From: Polaromonas sp.
GTDB lineage: Bacteria > Pseudomonadota > Gammaproteobacteria > Burkholderiales > Burkholderiaceae
Assembly (NCBI GenBank): GCA_013823505.1
Contig: PNMH01000156.1
Location: forward strand, 1-5,852
DNA: 5,852 nt
Direction: 5' to 3'
Shown: one piece after another, positions 1-5,771 of the stretch
Position numbering within the stretch: the stretch's first letter is position 1
Layout: each line of letters opens with the position of its first letter
The notes under the pieces: generated by a model
What the model saw: the letters and a program-made list of their open reading frames with translations, nothing else
Database searches by the model: none
Told to the model about the DNA's origin: nothing
Program-made: the position numbers and the translations under genes

Positions 1-1923
1 CGCATGGGCAAGACGCCGTACCAGGCGTCGATGGAAGCGGCCGACGAGATTGGCCTGGCGGTGATCGCCACCACCTTCGCCTTGATCGCAGTCTTCCTGC
101 CCACCGCCTTCATGTCGGGCATCCCGGGCAAATTCTTCAAGCAATTCGGCTGGACAGCGTCGTTCGCGGTGTTCGCCTCGCTGGTGGTGGCGCGCGCGCT
201 CACGCCCATGATGGCGGCCTACCTGCTCAAGCCGGTGGTGATGGCCAAAGACATGCCGCGCTGGGCGCGCAGCAACCGCGTGACGGGGGCCTTCTGGAAG
301 TGGATGACCAACCAGGACGAACCCGCCTGGCTCAACACCTACCAGGGCTGGGCGGCCTGGTGCATCCGCCACCGCTGGATCACCATGATCGGCGCGGGCG
401 TGTTCTTTGTCGGCTCGCTGATGCTGATTCCGTTGTTGCCTCAGGGCTTCATTCCGCCCGACGACAACTCGCAGACGCAGGTCTACATTGAACTGCCACC
501 GGGCTCCACGCTGCAGCAGACCGTGGCGAGTGCCGAGCGTGCGCGTCTGCTGGTGATGGAGGTGCCGCACGTGAAGTCGGTCTACACCACCATCGGCTCC
601 GGGTCGGCTGGCTCCGACCCCTTTGCGCCGCAGGGCACAGCCGAGTCGCGCAAGGCGGCGCTGACCATCCAGCTCGATGCGCGCGGCACGCGCCCGCGCA
701 AACAGATCATCGAAAACCAGATGCGCGCGGCCATGTCCAATCTGCCAGGCGTGCGCAGCAAGGTGGGGCTGGGCGGTTCGGGTGAAAAGTACATCCTGAC
801 GCTGACCGGCAACGACGCCGCTGCGCTCACCACGGCGGCCACCGGGATTGAACGCGACTTGCGCACCATCCAAGGGGTGGGCAGCGTGCAGTCCACCGCC
901 TCGCTGGTGCGCACCGAGATCAGCGTCACGCCCGACCTTGCGCGCGCTGCCGAGATGGGTGTCACCAGCAGCGCCATCGCCGAGACACTGCGCATCGCCA
1001 CCGTGGGCGACTACGACACAGCCCTGCCCAAGATGAACCTGCCGCAGCGGCAGATCCCCATCGTGGTCAAGCTCGATGCCGCGGCGCGTGGTGATCTGGA
1101 CCTGCTGGCCAGGCTGTCAGTGCCGGGCAGCAAGGGCCCGGTGATGTTGGGGCAGGTGGCCACGCTGAGTTTTGGCGGCGGCCCGGCCGTGATCGACCGC
1201 TACGACCGCGCGCGCAACATCAACTTCGAGGTGGAGCTGGCCGGCATTGCGCTGGGCGACATGAAGAACGCGGTGGAGAAACTGCCGAGCTTGCGCAACC
1301 TGCCACCCGGTGTGTCGGTGCTGGAGATTGGCGACGCCGAGGTGCAGGGTGAGCTGTTTGCCAGCTTCGGCCTGGCGATGCTCACTGGTGTGCTGTGCAT
1401 CTACATCGTGCTGGTGTTGCTGTTCAAGGCTTTCCTGCACCCGGTCACCATCCTGGCGGCGCTGCCGCTGTCGCTGGGTGGAGCGTTTGTGGCGTTGCTG
1501 CTGGCGAACAAGAGCTTCTCGATGCCGTCGCTGATCGGTCTGATCATGCTGATGGGCGTGGCGACAAAGAATTCGATTTTGCTGGTGGAGTACGCGATCG
1601 AGGCGCGGCGCGAGCACGGCATGAACCGGCTGGACGCGATCCTGGATGCCTGCCACAAGCGCGCACGTCCGATCGTGATGACGACGATTGCCATGGGGGC
1701 GGGCATGTTGCCGATCGCCATTGGCTGGGGCGCTGCCGACAGCAGTTTCCGCTCACCGATGGCGGTGGCGGTGATCGGCGGTTTGATCACGTCCACCTTC
1801 CTGAGCTTGCTGGTGATCCCGGCGGTGTTCACGCTGGTGGACGATGTGTCGATCTGGTTTGGGTCGCTGTTTGGGCGCAAACCTTCTGGGGCCGAGTCGC
1901 CGTCGGAGGCCCTGCGCGCTTAG
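1..1923 (+). CDS. RND efflux transporter permease subunit (HAE1/AcrB-type), 3' part only
   Basis: Inner-membrane proton-driven export pump subunit that works with a periplasmic adaptor and an outer-membrane channel. The reading frame is open from base 1, so the visible 640 codons are the C-terminal part of a protein usually about 1,030-1,070 residues long. Roughly the first 400 residues, including the conserved Asp pair of TM4, lie upstream of the window. Counting from the Met at base 4, probable membrane segments are near residues 17-40 (TM5), 50-72 (TM6), 124-146 (TM7), 452-474 (TM8), 478-501 (TM9), 505-531 (TM10), 556-577 (TM11) and 585-612 (TM12). The large periplasmic porter/docking region lies between TM7 and TM8. 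The TM10 motif GVATKNSILLVEYA carries the Lys (K522) equivalent to the proton-relay Lys of AcrB. The Met at base 4 is internal, not a real start. No outer-membrane factor gene follows, and substrates cannot be inferred. The hydrophilic tail is short and ends at TAG 1921-1923. Confidence 0.95.
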   Translation, partial: RMGKTPYQASMEAADEIGLAVIATTFALIAVFLPTAFMSGIPGKFFKQFGWTASFAVFASLVVARALTPMMAAYLLKPVVMAKDMPRWARSNRVTGAFWKWMTNQDEPAWLNTYQGWAAWCIRHRWITMIGAGVFFVGSLMLIPLLPQGFIPPDDNSQTQVYIELPPGSTLQQTVASAERARLLVMEVPHVKSVYTTIGSGSAGSDPFAPQGTAESRKAALTIQLDARGTRPRKQIIENQMRAAMSNLPGVRSKVGLGGSGEKYILTLTGNDAAALTTAATGIERDLRTIQGVGSVQSTASLVRTEISVTPDLARAAEMGVTSSAIAETLRIATVGDYDTALPKMNLPQRQIPIVVKLDAAARGDLDLLARLSVPGSKGPVMLGQVATLSFGGGPAVIDRYDRARNINFEVELAGIALGDMKNAVEKLPSLRNLPPGVSVLEIGDAEVQGELFASFGLAMLTGVLCIYIVLVLLFKAFLHPVTILAALPLSLGGAFVALLLANKSFSMPSLIGLIMLMGVATKNSILLVEYAIEARREHGMNRLDAILDACHKRARPIVMTTIAMGAGMLPIAIGWGAADSSFRSPMAVAVIGGLITSTFLSLLVIPAVFTLVDDVSIWFGSLFGRKPSGAESPSEALRA

Positions 1924-1937
1924 TTGGTGGGCGGGCG

Positions 1938-2030
1938 CGTGAGTGAGTGGCGCTCTGCTCCGCGGCTGTCCCCCGGCGGCTGGTGCCGCCTCCTCCTTTA
2001 TGCCGCTGCGCAGAGCGCCACTCACTCACG
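1938..2030 (-). repeat. Hairpin repeat element, copy 1 (conserved core, private stem)
   Basis: A long inverted repeat: 1938-1958 pairs perfectly with 2010-2030 (21 bp). It encloses a 51-nt core, 1959-2009, that reads on the minus strand like the core of the second copy at 2074-2179. In minus-strand order the core contains a 3x3 internal loop GCA/GGA (2009-2007 and 1961-1959) and a 5-bp stem GCGGC/GCCGC (2006-2002 with 1966-1962). Next comes a purine-rich internal loop ATAAAGGAGGA / GGGGGACA (2001-1991 and 1974-1967), then a terminal 6-bp GGCGGC/GCCGCC stem (1990-1985 with 1980-1975) with a 4-nt loop. No T-tract follows on either strand, so it is not a textbook intrinsic terminator, though it lies just after the efflux gene stop. 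The family is not recognised. A structured RNA, a REP-like palindrome or a small non-autonomous mobile element are all possible. Confidence 0.9.
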
Positions 2031-2073
2031 AGCTTGAAGTGATGTTGGAGCGAGCAGTTGACGAGTGCAACGA

Positions 2074-2179
2074 GGTTATCGGCGGCCACGGGGCACGGCG
2101 CAGCGAAATAAAGGAGGAGAGGCGGCAAAGCCGCCTCGGGGGACATTCGCGGAGCCGTGCCCTGTGGTCGCCGATGACC
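2074..2179 (+). repeat. Hairpin repeat element, copy 2 (conserved core, private stem)
   Basis: A long inverted repeat: 2074-2099 pairs with 2154-2179 over 26 positions. Of these, 23 are Watson-Crick and three are G·U-type when read as plus-strand RNA (2077/2176, 2085/2168, 2090/2163). The 54-nt core at 2100-2153 matches the minus-strand core of copy 1. It has a GCA/GGA internal loop (2100-2102, 2151-2153), a 5-bp stem GCGAA/TTCGC (2103-2107, 2146-2150) and the loop ATAAAGGAGGA / GGGGGACA (2108-2118, 2138-2145). The terminal stem is 8 bp, GAGGCGGC/GCCGCCTC (2119-2126, 2130-2137), with an AAA loop. The outer stem shares no evident sequence with that of copy 1. The element lies about 40 nt from the glnD stop codon and in opposite orientation to copy 1. 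No start codon lies at a usable distance after AAAGGAGG, and I see no ORF in it. Confidence 0.9.
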
Positions 2180-2221
2180 GGAGCAACCGGAGAGAAACAC
2201 GAGCAAAGCCGGAGAAAAGCC

Positions 2222-4939
2222 TCAGCCCTCCAGCGTCTCCAGCAACTCCGTCTCGATCTCGATCTGCCGCTTGTTCATCTGCAGCTGCGCGCCACAGATG
2301 AGGAACGTGTCTTCCACCCGCTCGCCCAGCGTGGTGATCTTGGCCAGCTGCACGTTGATGTCGTAACGCGCCAGCACCCGCGAGATGCCGTAAAGCAGAC
2401 CGGCTCGATCGCTTGCCGAGACCGACAACAACCAACGCTGCGCCTTCTCGTCCGGCCGCAGATCCACCCGCGGCGTGACCGGGAAACTCTTGACCCGGCG
2501 CGAGAGCCTGCCCTTCATGGGCGCCGGCAACGGGCCGCACTCGTCGATGGTCTGCGCCAGGTTGTTCTCCACCATGGCGATCAATTCGCGGTAGTGCTCG
2601 GACAGCGTGGGCGCCACCACCTGGAAGGTGTCGAGTGCGTGGCCGGTGAGCGTGGTGTGCACGCGGGCGTCCAGGATGCTGAAGTTGGAGCTGTCGAAAT
2701 AGCCGCAAATGCGGGCAAACAGATCGTTTTGGTCGGGCGCATACACCAGCACCTGCAGGCCTTCGCCTTCGGGCGAGAGGCGGGCGCGCACGATGCAGCG
2801 GTCGATCACAACGTCATCGCCTTCTGGCGCAGGCTTGCCTGCCGCTTTGGTCGCGGTCTGGGCGATCTGGCGCGTGAGCACGCGGGTGTGCCAGGCGATC
2901 TCGTCGGCCTGGTGGCGCATGAAGTAGCTCACGTCCAGCGTGTCCCAGAGCGCCTTGTGGGCCATGTGCGGCAGCGCGTGCAGCGCCAGCATGGACAGCG
3001 CCTCTCGCTTGCGCGCTTCGATCACGGCACCCGGGTCGGGCGCTCGGCCGCCGAGCGCACGCAGGGTGTAGCGGTACAGGTCTTCCAGCAGCTTGCCCTT
3101 CCAGGCATTCCACACCTTGGGACTGGTGCCGCGAATGTCGGCCACGGTGAGCAGGTAGAGCGCCGTGAGGTAACGCTCGTTGCCCACGCGTTGGGCAAAG
3201 GCGGCGATCACGTCCGGGTCGCTGAGGTCTTCCTTTTGAGCCATGCGGCTCATGGTCAGGTGCTCGGACACCAGGAACTCGATCAGCTTGCTGTCTTCGC
3301 GCTCGATGCCGTGTTGGCGGCAGAAAGTGCGAACGTCCTTGGCGCCGAGATCGGAGTGATCACCGCCACGGCCCTTGGCGATGTCGTGGAAGATCGCCGC
3401 GATGTAGAAGATCCAGGGCTTGTCCCAGCCGGCGGCCAGCTGCGAGCAGAACGGGTATTCGTGTGAATGCTCCGCAATGAAGAAGCGGCGCACGTTGCGC
3501 AGCACCATCAGGATGTGCTGGTCCACGGTGTAGACGTGGAACAGGTCGTGCTGCATCTGGCCCACGATGTGGCGGAACACCCAGAGGTAGCGCCCGAGCA
3601 CCGAGGTCTCGTTCATCATGCGCAGCGCGTGCGTGATGCCTTCGGGCTCCTGCAGGATCTGCAGGAACTGCGCGCGGTTGACCGGGTCGGCGCGGAACTT
3701 GGCGTTCATCACAGGCCGGGCGTTGTAGAGCGCACGCAGCGTGCGGGCGGAAAACCCCTTGATGCCCACCGTGGTCTGGTAGATGTGGAACGTCTCCAGG
3801 ATCGCGTGGGGCTGCTGCACGTACAGGTCGTCGCTGGCCACCTCCAGCATGCCGCCCTTGTCGAAAAAGCGCGCGTTCAAGGGCCGCAGGCGGTCCACGC
3901 CGGCCATGTCGTCCTGCAGGCGTTCCTGGATGTTGAGCAACAAGATCTGGTTGAGCTGGGTCACCGCCTTGGCTGCCCAGTAGTAACGCTTCATGAGCGC
4001 TTCGCTGGCGCGGCGCGTGCCTTTGGCGGTGGGTGCCACGTGGGGCGCTCCGGGCGGGCCGGCGTTGATGACAGCCGGCACCTGCGCCTTGAAGCCGAAC
4101 GATTCGGCCACGGCTGTCTGCAGGTCGAACACCAGGCGGTCTTCGCGCCGGTTGGCCAGCAGGTGCAGGCGCGCACGGATCAGGCTGAGCAGGGCTTCGT
4201 TGGCCTTGATCTGCCGGGCTTCCAGCGGCGTGGCCAGACCCTTGCGGGCCAGGTCGTCCCAGCTGCGACCCAGGCCAGCCGCCTTGGACACCCACAGGAT
4301 GATCTGCAGATCGCGCAGGCCGCCGGGTGACTCCTTGCAGTTGGGCTCCAGCGAATACGGGGTGTTTTCGTACTTGGTGTGGCGCTGGCGCATCTCCAGC
4401 GTCTTGGCCACATAAAAGGCCTTGGGGTCCATGGCCTCGCCAAGCTGGGTCACCAGGCGGTTGAAGGCGTTCTTGCTGCCGCAGATCAGCCGGCTCTCCA
4501 GCATGGAGGTCTGCACCGTCACGTCTTTGGCCGACTCCTCCACGCAGTCGGACACCGTGCGCACGCTGGAGCCGATTTCCAGGCCGAGGTCCCAACAGGC
4601 GCCGATGAACGCCTCGAGCTGCTTCTTGAGTTCTGCGTCGTCGTCGGGCTGCGCACCGTCGGGCAGCAGCACCAGCACGTCCACGTCGGAATAAGGGAAG
4701 AGTTCGCCGCGGCCGTAACCGCCCACCGCAATGAGCGAGCAACCGCCCGCAAACCCGGCACGGCCCCAGAGTTCGCGCAGGGTCTGGTCGGTCAGGCGCG
4801 AGAGCTGCTGCAGCGCCTGGCGCACGCCCCGGGTGGAAGCACCCTGGTCGCGCAGCAGGGCAAAGAGGGCAGTCTTGTCGTCGCGGTAGCGCTGGCGCAG
4901 CGCGCCGATGTCGCCCGCCGGCGCCAGTGGGGCGTCCAT
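2222..4939 (-). CDS. glnD: Bifunctional PII uridylyltransferase / uridylyl-removing enzyme GlnD
   Basis: Cytosolic nitrogen sensor that uridylylates PII proteins (GlnB/GlnK) when glutamine is low and removes UMP when glutamine is high, thereby steering glutamine synthetase adenylylation and the NtrBC response. The 905-residue product is close to the usual ~860-900. The nucleotidyltransferase domain has [17 protein letters not shown] at residues 73-89, with catalytic D85 and D87. A helical GlnD linker region follows. The HD hydrolase domain shows TVDQH (H475), [13 protein letters not shown] (H518, D519), SEH (H560) and AD (D601). Two glutamine-sensing ACT domains lie at about 727-795 and 836-905. 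The ATG at 4937-4939 is 4 nt after the map stop. It lacks a clear Shine-Dalgarno, which points to translational coupling. Residues ~285-311 form a Gly/Pro/Ala-rich stretch that looks longer than I expect at this point in the family. All catalytic residues are present, so it should be active in both directions. Confidence 0.98.
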
Positions 4940-4943
4940 CGGC

Positions 4944-5771
4944 TCAGGCGGCCACGGCGGCCTGGGCTGTCACGAAGGCCGGTGGCGCCAAACTGCCGGC
5001 CGACAGCGTGAGCACTTCGTAGCCGGTTTCGGTGACCAGCACCGTGTGTTCCCACTGGGCGGAGAGCGAACGGTCGCGCGTGACGATAGTCCAGCCGTCG
5101 CCGGCTTCCTTGATGTCGCGTTTGCCCGCGTTGATCATGGGCTCGATGGTGAAGGTCATGCCCGGCTTGAGTTCTTCCAGCGTGCCCGGGCGGCCGTAAT
5201 GCAGCACCTGGGGGTCTTCGTGAAACTTCTGGCCGATGCCGTGGCCGCAGAATTCGCGCACCACCGAGAAGCCGTTGCCTTCGGCAAAGGTCTGGATGGC
5301 GTGGCCGATGTCGCCCAGGCGGATGCCGGGCTTGACCATCACGATGCCTTTCCACATGGCCTCGTACGTCACCTGGGTCAGCCGGCGCGCCTGCACCGAG
5401 CAGGCGGCTTCGCCACCGATCATGTACATGCGGCTGTTGTCGCCAAACCAGCCGTCCTTGATGACGGTCACGTCCACGTTGAGGATGTCGCCCTTCTTGA
5501 GCGGCTTCTCGTTCGGGATGCCGTGGCACACCACGTGGTTGATGGAGGTGCACAGGTGGCCGGGGTAGGGCGGGTAACCGCTGGGCTGGTAGCCGATGGT
5601 GGCCGAGACCGTGCCCTGCTGTTTCATGAACTCGGCCGCGAGGCGGTCGATCTCCAGCGTGGTCACGCCCGGCTGGATCAGCGGCGTGAGGTAGTCCAGC
5701 ACTTCGGAGGCCAGGCGGCAAGCCACCCGCATGCCTTCGATGCCCGCTTCGTCTTTGTAGGTGATGCTCAT
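4944..5771 (-). CDS. map: Type I methionine aminopeptidase
   Basis: Removes the initiator Met from nascent proteins whose second residue is small; cytosolic and usually essential. The 275-residue product has the pita-bread fold signatures. CHGIPN contains H83. The metal ligands are D100 (NVD), D111 (FGDNS), H177 (CGHGIG), E210 (TIEPM) and E241 (WEHT); H184 (KFHEDP) and W227 (GDGWT) are also conserved. There is no N-terminal extension, as in the bacterial type Ia class. The N-terminus [17 protein letters not shown] aligns well with the family, which supports the ATG at 5771. The C-terminus carries an extra Ala/Pro-rich tail of about 12-15 residues compared with the E. coli protein. It is first in the unit with glnD downstream. 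The bases before the ATG are pyrimidine-rich (C-tract) with no Shine-Dalgarno, and a -10 element lies only 8 nt upstream (see promoter). Confidence 0.98.

Follow-up and report, generated by a model that had tools for sequence, protein, structure and literature searches.

ERIC/IRU and NEMIS/Correia sequences are imperfect palindromes of about 100 bp that lie outside genes, often near gene ends, and their arms are conserved within each family. We know of no lineage-specific covarying arms or twin outward-pointing hairpins in either group. REP sequences are described as palindromes of 20-40 bp with a GTAG or CGTC tag at one end (PMC3733652), and a rayt gene flanked by two inverted REPs has been reported (PMC2817692). 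According to a further account, the Y1 transposase reads the REP as folded single-stranded DNA by way of irregularities in its stem (PMC8266576). The BRE of betaproteobacteria (Hot et al. 2011) is G+C-rich and mostly intergenic, about 90 bp long or present as partial copies of 40-60 bp, and in Table 3 of its description never lies between divergent genes. It was defined in Bordetella, occurs in Polaromonas, Rhodoferax, Delftia and others, and forms variable-number tandem arrays whose copies are separated by few nucleotides or none (PMC3110155). Finally, the MRSC-65-2 motif (Narunsky et al. 2024) is presented as a single long stem with a conserved UYCCGG (PMC11109978).

The element analysed here resembles each of these systems in part. 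With REP, BIME and REPIN sequences it has in common many extragenic copies, irregular imperfect hairpins, inverted pairs and a strand-specific fold, but its hairpins are much longer, have no GTAG or CGTC tag and enclose a conserved purine loop of 11 × 8 nt; moreover, no element lies beside the Y1 genes examined and the two do not co-occur. The logic is similar to that of the REP read by a Y1 transposase, with a much larger stem irregularity. It is like ERIC/IRU and NEMIS/Correia in size and extragenic location, and unlike them in having lineage-specific covarying arms and twin outward hairpins. As described in PMC11109978, MRSC-65-2 also has a long covarying stem, dozens of copies per genome and a suspected selfish nature, but its UYCCGG core is absent from the twin-hairpin element. 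The nearest published repeat is BRE, which we compared with the element by description. A literature search found no description of this twin-hairpin element, and a term search of PMC4666352 for six taxon names found none of them; the family is apparently undescribed.

A twin-hairpin unit between convergent genes

The window, by which we mean the whole 5,852-nt stretch of Polaromonas sp. DNA that was analysed, contains two hairpins in the 298-bp gap between convergent genes (Table 1). An earlier note had described them as two elements with a common core and distinct self-complementary stems. Both are present, with fold z-scores of -10.4 (half 1) and -10.7 (half 2) against 200 dinucleotide shuffles, none of which folded as well, and minimum free energies of -72.5 and -80.6 kcal/mol; folding is strong on the opposite strands too (z -9.6 and -9.1). 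The halves are the two longest closely spaced inverted repeats of the window (I1 and I2), a third (I3) being longer but with its arms 4 kb apart. From the outside in, each hairpin consists of a long stem, P1 (at least 19 pairs), a 3 × 3 loop, GCA/GGA, a 5-pair stem, P2, an asymmetric purine-rich internal loop, and a variable hairpin, P3. In the internal loop, which is nearly invariant, AUHAAGGRGGA (11 nt) stands opposite GGRGGACA (8 nt).

Table 1. Features of the window, with the parts of each half in 5′ to 3′ order
Feature	Position	Strand	Remarks
Flanking gene, 3′ part	4..1923	+	presumably the 3′ part of an RND-type efflux transporter gene; stop 11 nt from unit
Composite twin-hairpin unit	1935..2179		back to back (<- ->), about 245 bp, flanked by the stop codons of two convergent genes
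Half 1 (copy 1 of the earlier note)	1935..2033	-	98.4 bits against model R1, whose training set includes this copy
Half 1, P1 5′ arm	2033-2010	-	
Half 1, GCA	2009-2007	-	
Half 1, P2	2006-2002	-	
Half 1, loop ATAAAGGAGGA	2001-1991	-	
Half 1, P3 hairpin	1990-1975	-	
Half 1, loop GGGGGACA	1974-1967	-	
Half 1, P2	1966-1962	-	
Half 1, GGA	1961-1959	-	
Half 1, P1 3′ arm	1958-1935	-	
Spacer separating the halves	2034..2073		
Spacer end CAACGAGGT	2068-2076		reaches into half 2; recurs in units of Hydrogenophaga intermedia elsewhere (by eye)
Half 2 (copy 2 of the earlier note)	2074..2179	+	88.8 bits against model R1, whose training set includes this copy
Half 2, P1 5′ arm	2074-2099	+	
Half 2, GCA	2100-2102	+	
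Half 2, P2	2103-2107	+	
Half 2, loop ATAAAGGAGGA	2108-2118	+	
Half 2, P3	2119-2137	+	
Half 2, loop GGGGGACA	2138-2145	+	
Half 2, P2	2146-2150	+	
Half 2, GGA	2151-2153	+	
Half 2, P1 3′ arm	2154-2179	+	
Outer flank GGAGCAACCGGAGAG	2180..2194	+	similar sequence behind Hydrogenophaga units (by eye), so probably part of the dispersed unit
Convergent flanking gene	2222..4939	-	taken to be glnD-like; stop 42 nt from unit
Third gene	4944-5771	-	taken to be methionine-aminopeptidase-like

The identity blocks claimed for the core, namely GCAGCG, ATAAAGGAGGA, GGCGGC/GCCGCC, GGGGGACA and CGCGGA, are common to both halves, and the outer arms of the two are unrelated in sequence, as had been stated. The two bases 3′ of GCAGCG and 5′ of CGCGGA differ between the halves yet pair in each (GC/GC versus AA/TT). 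Of the stem lengths given earlier, the 26 bp for half 2 is what we find if G-U pairs are included; the 21 bp for half 1 is right for the contiguous pairs, but that stem continues for two more pairs past a mismatch, its 24-nt arms forming 23 Watson-Crick pairs and one mismatch. The closest match to the C-terminus of GlnD, 97% identical, came from the genus sample around Hydrogenophaga sp. IBVHS1, which points to Hydrogenophaga or a near relative as the source of the window. When the Rfam 15 covariance models were run on the window, as had been proposed, no credible match appeared; the best was the microRNA family RF03240, with 22.7 bits against a cut-off of 79 (E 0.8).

The two hairpins belong together. 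In two sets, both of which include the window unit, every pair of neighbouring halves is arranged back to back (37 of 37 and 43 of 43); in two lower-scoring sets this is so for 9 of 11 and 14 of 15 pairs, and the remainder point in the same direction (the 9 of 11 become 8 of 10 distinct pairs because L049 and L137 represent a single locus). At L342 the minus-strand match overlaps the plus-strand one and was left out of this count. Four same-direction neighbours were seen in all, none of them abutting; at the Variovorax junction L277 two cores have the same direction, and L352 (641-1593), from the Pseudoxanthomonas NC8 genus sample, holds four clustered matches, three of them in one direction, which form an array and not a pair. 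Spacers fall into classes of 46-65 nt (29 of 43 pairs), 78-108 nt (5) and 147-159 nt (9), the last being longer than the first by about one half of a unit; the spacer of L297, of the roughly 150-nt class, looks as if it contained a duplicated half.

By eye and without counts, most Variovorax units combine one A-type arm (GTGCACAGGGC...) with one B-type arm (GCTCACGTCGGC...), some carry another pair of arm types, and in H. intermedia two or more sets of arms can be told apart; the spacer, judged in the same way, is similar from unit to unit in Variovorax. Since arm types recur between units, the outer arms are repeats common to units. Arms diverge between lineages and recur among the units of one lineage, and they look unrelated in comparisons of left arms with right ones, of different lineages or of different subfamilies. 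The argument that dissimilar arms set the element apart from MITEs is thus not supported, the two copies being halves of one unit. In one Variovorax MAG (L025, L069, L083 and L111) a half has a 5′ arm of one type and a 3′ arm of the other (A and B), as though the spacer had been inverted between cores or copies had been mixed in the assembly. The outward flank in L211, L219, L221 and L222 (Variovorax) is made of short A- and C-rich repeats of about 13 nt, GCGCCCYGAACAA.

Covariation, the G-rich loop and the folded strand

We aligned 47 elements chosen for diversity (A1) and built model R1 from them. Changes on both sides were found in 25 of 30 pairs, which constitutes strong compensatory change, and 96.2% of cells were paired, versus 67.7% after shuffling and 35-44% in slid controls. 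Conserved loops within arms that change and still pair, as the earlier note had anticipated, are therefore seen across diverse copies. Its view that the stem is kept as structure and not as sequence holds for these covarying pairs but not throughout, since 46 of 47 elements have G-C at the ninth pair outward of the loop junction (the remaining one has G-U), and strong biases affect several neighbouring pairs. In A2, an alignment of 109 matches from 33 genomes or single loci that was fitted to R1 (matches to which are 77-121 nt long), 96.5% of cells are paired, all 29 pairs show two-sided changes, and the 3 × 3 loop is exactly GCA/GGA in 98 of 109 elements. Among 35 lower-scoring matches from 9 genomes (A4), P1 pairing reaches 99.2%, and the middle of P2 is a tandem G-A in 33 of 35 rows, flanked by covarying pairs. 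Some copies from the Pseudoxanthomonas genus have P2 and the 3 × 3 loop altered further, with the big loop kept.

The internal loop brings together two GGRGG motifs, and all eight Gs are present in 104 of the 109 A2 elements. A stricter text match places 9 of 109 (A2), 9 of 26 (A3) and 6 of 35 (A4) elements off the pattern, a comparison in which gap-shifted rows can be missed; L116 and L049 have just four Gs (GGGG) on the 3′ side. The two middle linkers (A2 columns 37 and 106) vary in a coupled, non-Watson-Crick fashion: A/G in 93 elements and G/A in 10, with A/A in 3, C/G in 2 and a gap in 1 (Fisher p 9e-12 on purines, kinship ignored). The ten swapped copies come from nine genomes, and some have different arms and P3, while three look alike. 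Of the 29 A4 rows that fit, 24 are A/G, 3 C/G and 2 A/A; with no swapped copy in this set, the coupling is not seen there. The coupling suggests direct contact or a quadruplex. A tentative idea, on the unlikely side in our estimate, is that the core forms a natural G-quadruplex of two layers (GG-R-GG, P3, GG-R-GG) held between two helices, and that an enzyme reads this folded strand; the G4 option of ViennaRNA did not choose a quadruplex for two test sequences. The linker coupling could alternatively reflect a direct A-G contact in a purine-purine loop.

Imperfections in P1 bear on which strand folds. If neither strand were under constraint, no bias between G-U and A-C would be expected. In a symmetric arm alignment of 156 of 164 elements (eight being too near an end or containing N), G-U mismatches outnumber A-C by 343 to 36, with 145 other mismatches; counted by element the bias is 139 to 3, and over 37 arm clusters it is 69 to 8. 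In two sets, the ratio is 93:10 and 96:2 for sense halves in tandem gaps, 89:13 and 93:10 for antisense halves, and 79:9 and 57:7 for halves in convergent gaps. The excess is independent of transcription direction, and we conclude that one strand folds; its presence in antisense halves argues against selection on, or mutation in, the local transcript alone. The bias could be inherited from source copies.

Distribution, genomic position and turnover

Further copies, predicted by the earlier note, are abundant. In 11 genomes picked because their loci hold elements, R1 finds from 2 to at least 112 hairpins each, and 2 more on one plasmid; these are lower bounds, with at most 150 candidates scored at E ≤ 1e-3. 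The counts are at least 112 in V. paradoxus NBRC 15149, 73 in Variovorax J22R193, 64 in a Polaromonas MAG, 55 in H. intermedia, 53 in a Ramlibacter MAG and 22 in Hydrogenophaga IBVHS1. Within the family of V. paradoxus, 111 of 250 genomes have a match and 139 do not (E ≤ 1e-5), a survey that scored 17 candidates per genome, listed 1 to 17 matches and may miss genomes with weak elements. The wider samples gave 13 of 300 genomes for the order (E ≤ 1e-6), eight of them new relative to our earlier lists and lower in score (best 67-76 bits), and 3 of 274 for the class (E ≤ 1e-5); in the genus of Pseudoxanthomonas NC8, 13 of 17 genomes match (E ≤ 1e-5).

One pattern scan of genome contigs returned at least 120 stretches, and among those listed nearly all are Comamonadaceae by record title (Variovorax, Hydrogenophaga, Rhodoferax, Ramlibacter, Polaromonas, Xylophilus and Pseudorhodoferax), the others listed being Pseudoxanthomonas NC8, a Stagnimonas MAG and a few MAGs of wider label. 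BLAST searches against plasmids gave 43 and 18 records at E ≤ 10, convincing only on three Variovorax megaplasmids, and a search of viral contigs with one pattern gave no match. In Variovorax KBW07, elements stand at contig ends in L009, L014, L017, L019, L037, L052, L064, L065, L075, L077, L094, L095 and L113; given this placement and the near-identity of many copies, they probably cause breaks in the assembly, and the near-identity may reflect recent spread or gene conversion in this strain.

Genes were called with our own codon-usage caller, a simple one that does not replace curated annotation. By these calls, 126 of 127 assessable elements lie outside genes, 37 of 164 having been left out because no gene was called on one side. 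Divergent gaps hold 1 of 126 elements, versus 96 of 715 background gaps in the same loci (p 1.4e-6), and convergent gaps hold 40 of 126 (p 2.4e-6); both p values are too small because the two halves of a unit were counted separately. In a second set, 0 of 60 groups lie in divergent gaps versus 12 of 138 (p 0.02), and with halves classed singly the figure is 1 of 104. In 39 of 42 tandem gaps the unit begins 15-142 nt past the upstream stop (median about 54), and the next start lies a median of about 100 nt beyond the unit.

Orthologous sites differ in whether they carry a unit. At one Variovorax junction of co-directional genes it is present in 8 of 26 aligned orthologues; in L256, L258, L259 and L265, which are 90-95% identical (L256, 95%), the genes are, by eye, 7-11 nt apart. 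Six of the filled sites have a common altered stop region, and these may therefore descend from one old insertion. No target-site duplication is readable at the Variovorax junctions because the empty gaps are too short. At the window's glnD site, units occur in L156, L163, L181 and L185, the last three with other arms, and the L185 unit appears inverted relative to that of L181. L161 and L164 seem to hold remnants, and gaps without a unit measure 34 nt (L166), 14 nt (L171) and 16 nt (L174). The apparently empty L161 keeps the likely outer flank of a unit, and L269 may do so too, which indicates that some absences are deletions. Units are gained, lost or both at orthologous sites, a pattern that a dispersed repeat fits better than a fixed RNA gene does.

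Competing explanations and a proposed mode of spread

We consider it probable that the twin hairpin represents an undescribed family of small, non-autonomous, extragenic dispersed elements, organised like REPINs or BIMEs but differently built, whose core is read as a folded strand. The direct evidence is copy number, twin layout, covariation, the strand-biased fold, the position behind stop codons, and the variable occupancy of orthologous sites. Between distant genomes the loop is more constant than a selfish repeat would obviously require, and this would fit a host RNA function too.

One such function would be that of a 3′-UTR RNA, in which the sense hairpin at an mRNA 3′ end blocks 3′-5′ exonucleases or marks a site of processing once Rho has terminated transcription in the A+C-rich tract that follows. 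The placement of units past upstream stops in tandem gaps and the avoidance of divergent gaps favour this idea, as does the geometry of the back-to-back unit, in which the last hairpin that any entering transcript reaches is a sense one. Outward of the sense hairpin, the next 60 nt are A/C-rich (28% A, 36% C and 23% G, versus 17% A, 34% C and 31% G behind called stops, a comparison that includes coding sequence). An intrinsic terminator is not apparent there, with no U-run by eye and 12-13% T in the 60 nt behind P1 in two sets. Intact single halves lean toward the sense orientation, 17 to 9, but the lean is not significant (p 0.17) and becomes 4 to 4 in a second set; we rejected it as proof of an mRNA role. 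Antisense halves, moreover, show the G-U bias about equally strongly, and close relatives manage without the unit. A role at mRNA 3′ ends is possible, though the orientation data do not favour it, and as the primary explanation we hold it unlikely.

It is less probable still that the hairpin is a new structured RNA with an activity of its own, such as a ribozyme or a ligand- or protein-binding RNA (for example, a CsrA or ribosome decoy), spread through selection as well as copying. Conserved loops inside variable stems are what such an RNA would show, as are the coupled non-Watson-Crick columns of A2 and the tandem G-A in P2 of A4; AAAGGAGG can also pair with the 3′ tail of 16S rRNA over 8 pairs at -12 kcal/mol. 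Set against these points are the lack of an Rfam match for the window and a sense orientation bias that falls short of significance.

We likewise doubt that the element is simply BRE, and thus already known. The two match in size, G+C content, host group and avoidance of divergent gaps, and they may overlap. Compared by description, however, BRE forms tandem arrays and our units are back-to-back pairs, mostly with spacers of 46-65 nt. In an indirect test, R1 found nothing at E ≤ 0.1 in any of five Bordetella-like genomes (150 candidates scored in each), which may themselves lack BRE and whose genus we deduced from BugE identity alone: the marker search gave 0 of 399 genomes at E ≤ 1e-130, and then five matches among 300 genomes, 77-95% identical to Bordetella BugE.

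A classical REP/REPIN family served by a host RAYT (Y1 transposase) is, for all its resemblance in inverted twin layout, copy number and extragenic position, and with a Y1_Tnp match in 8 of 9 genomes (just one in six of those), very improbable given that 11 Y1_Tnp loci, searched to about 1.5 kb on each side, contain no element at E ≤ 1, that PF01797 is missing from 10 of the 40 genomes for which 10 or more matches were listed, and that the 77-121-nt matches carry no conserved tag at the modelled base of P1, neither GTAG nor CGTC, the strongest bias there being a single G (85%). Across 250 genomes, a link between the two was tried and rejected: PF01797 occurs in 85 of 111 element genomes versus 102 of 139 element-free ones (85 genomes have both, 26 the element alone, 102 PF01797 alone and 37 neither; p 0.66). 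Since the presence of the element and that of a Y1 transposase are unrelated, another enzyme seems to be involved; our search for a mobilising enzyme, with PF01797 as the candidate sought, found none. A Y1_Tnp-like gene with similarly arranged neighbouring genes and no adjacent element occurs in L147, L148, L150, L151 and L152; it is possibly a domesticated transposase.

For the non-autonomous dispersed element that we favour, the core would be recognised by an enzyme that acts on the element as a single strand in its folded state during its spread. This strand may be single-stranded DNA or, less likely, RNA. Pairing in P1 would be maintained because the enzymatic step needs the fold, and units would survive where they are least harmful, behind genes; effects on mRNA 3′ ends, if any, would be secondary.

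The family fills intergenic space in many environmental Comamonadaceae. Its units can part neighbouring co-directional genes, and at least one draft genome has contig ends that coincide with them. It offers a clean example of a repeat in which sequence drifts and structure stays, and in which the strand matters and the direction of transcription does not. The conserved loop, in which one position shows non-Watson-Crick coupling, lends itself well to structural study, and the family makes testable how REP-like repeats without a RAYT spread.
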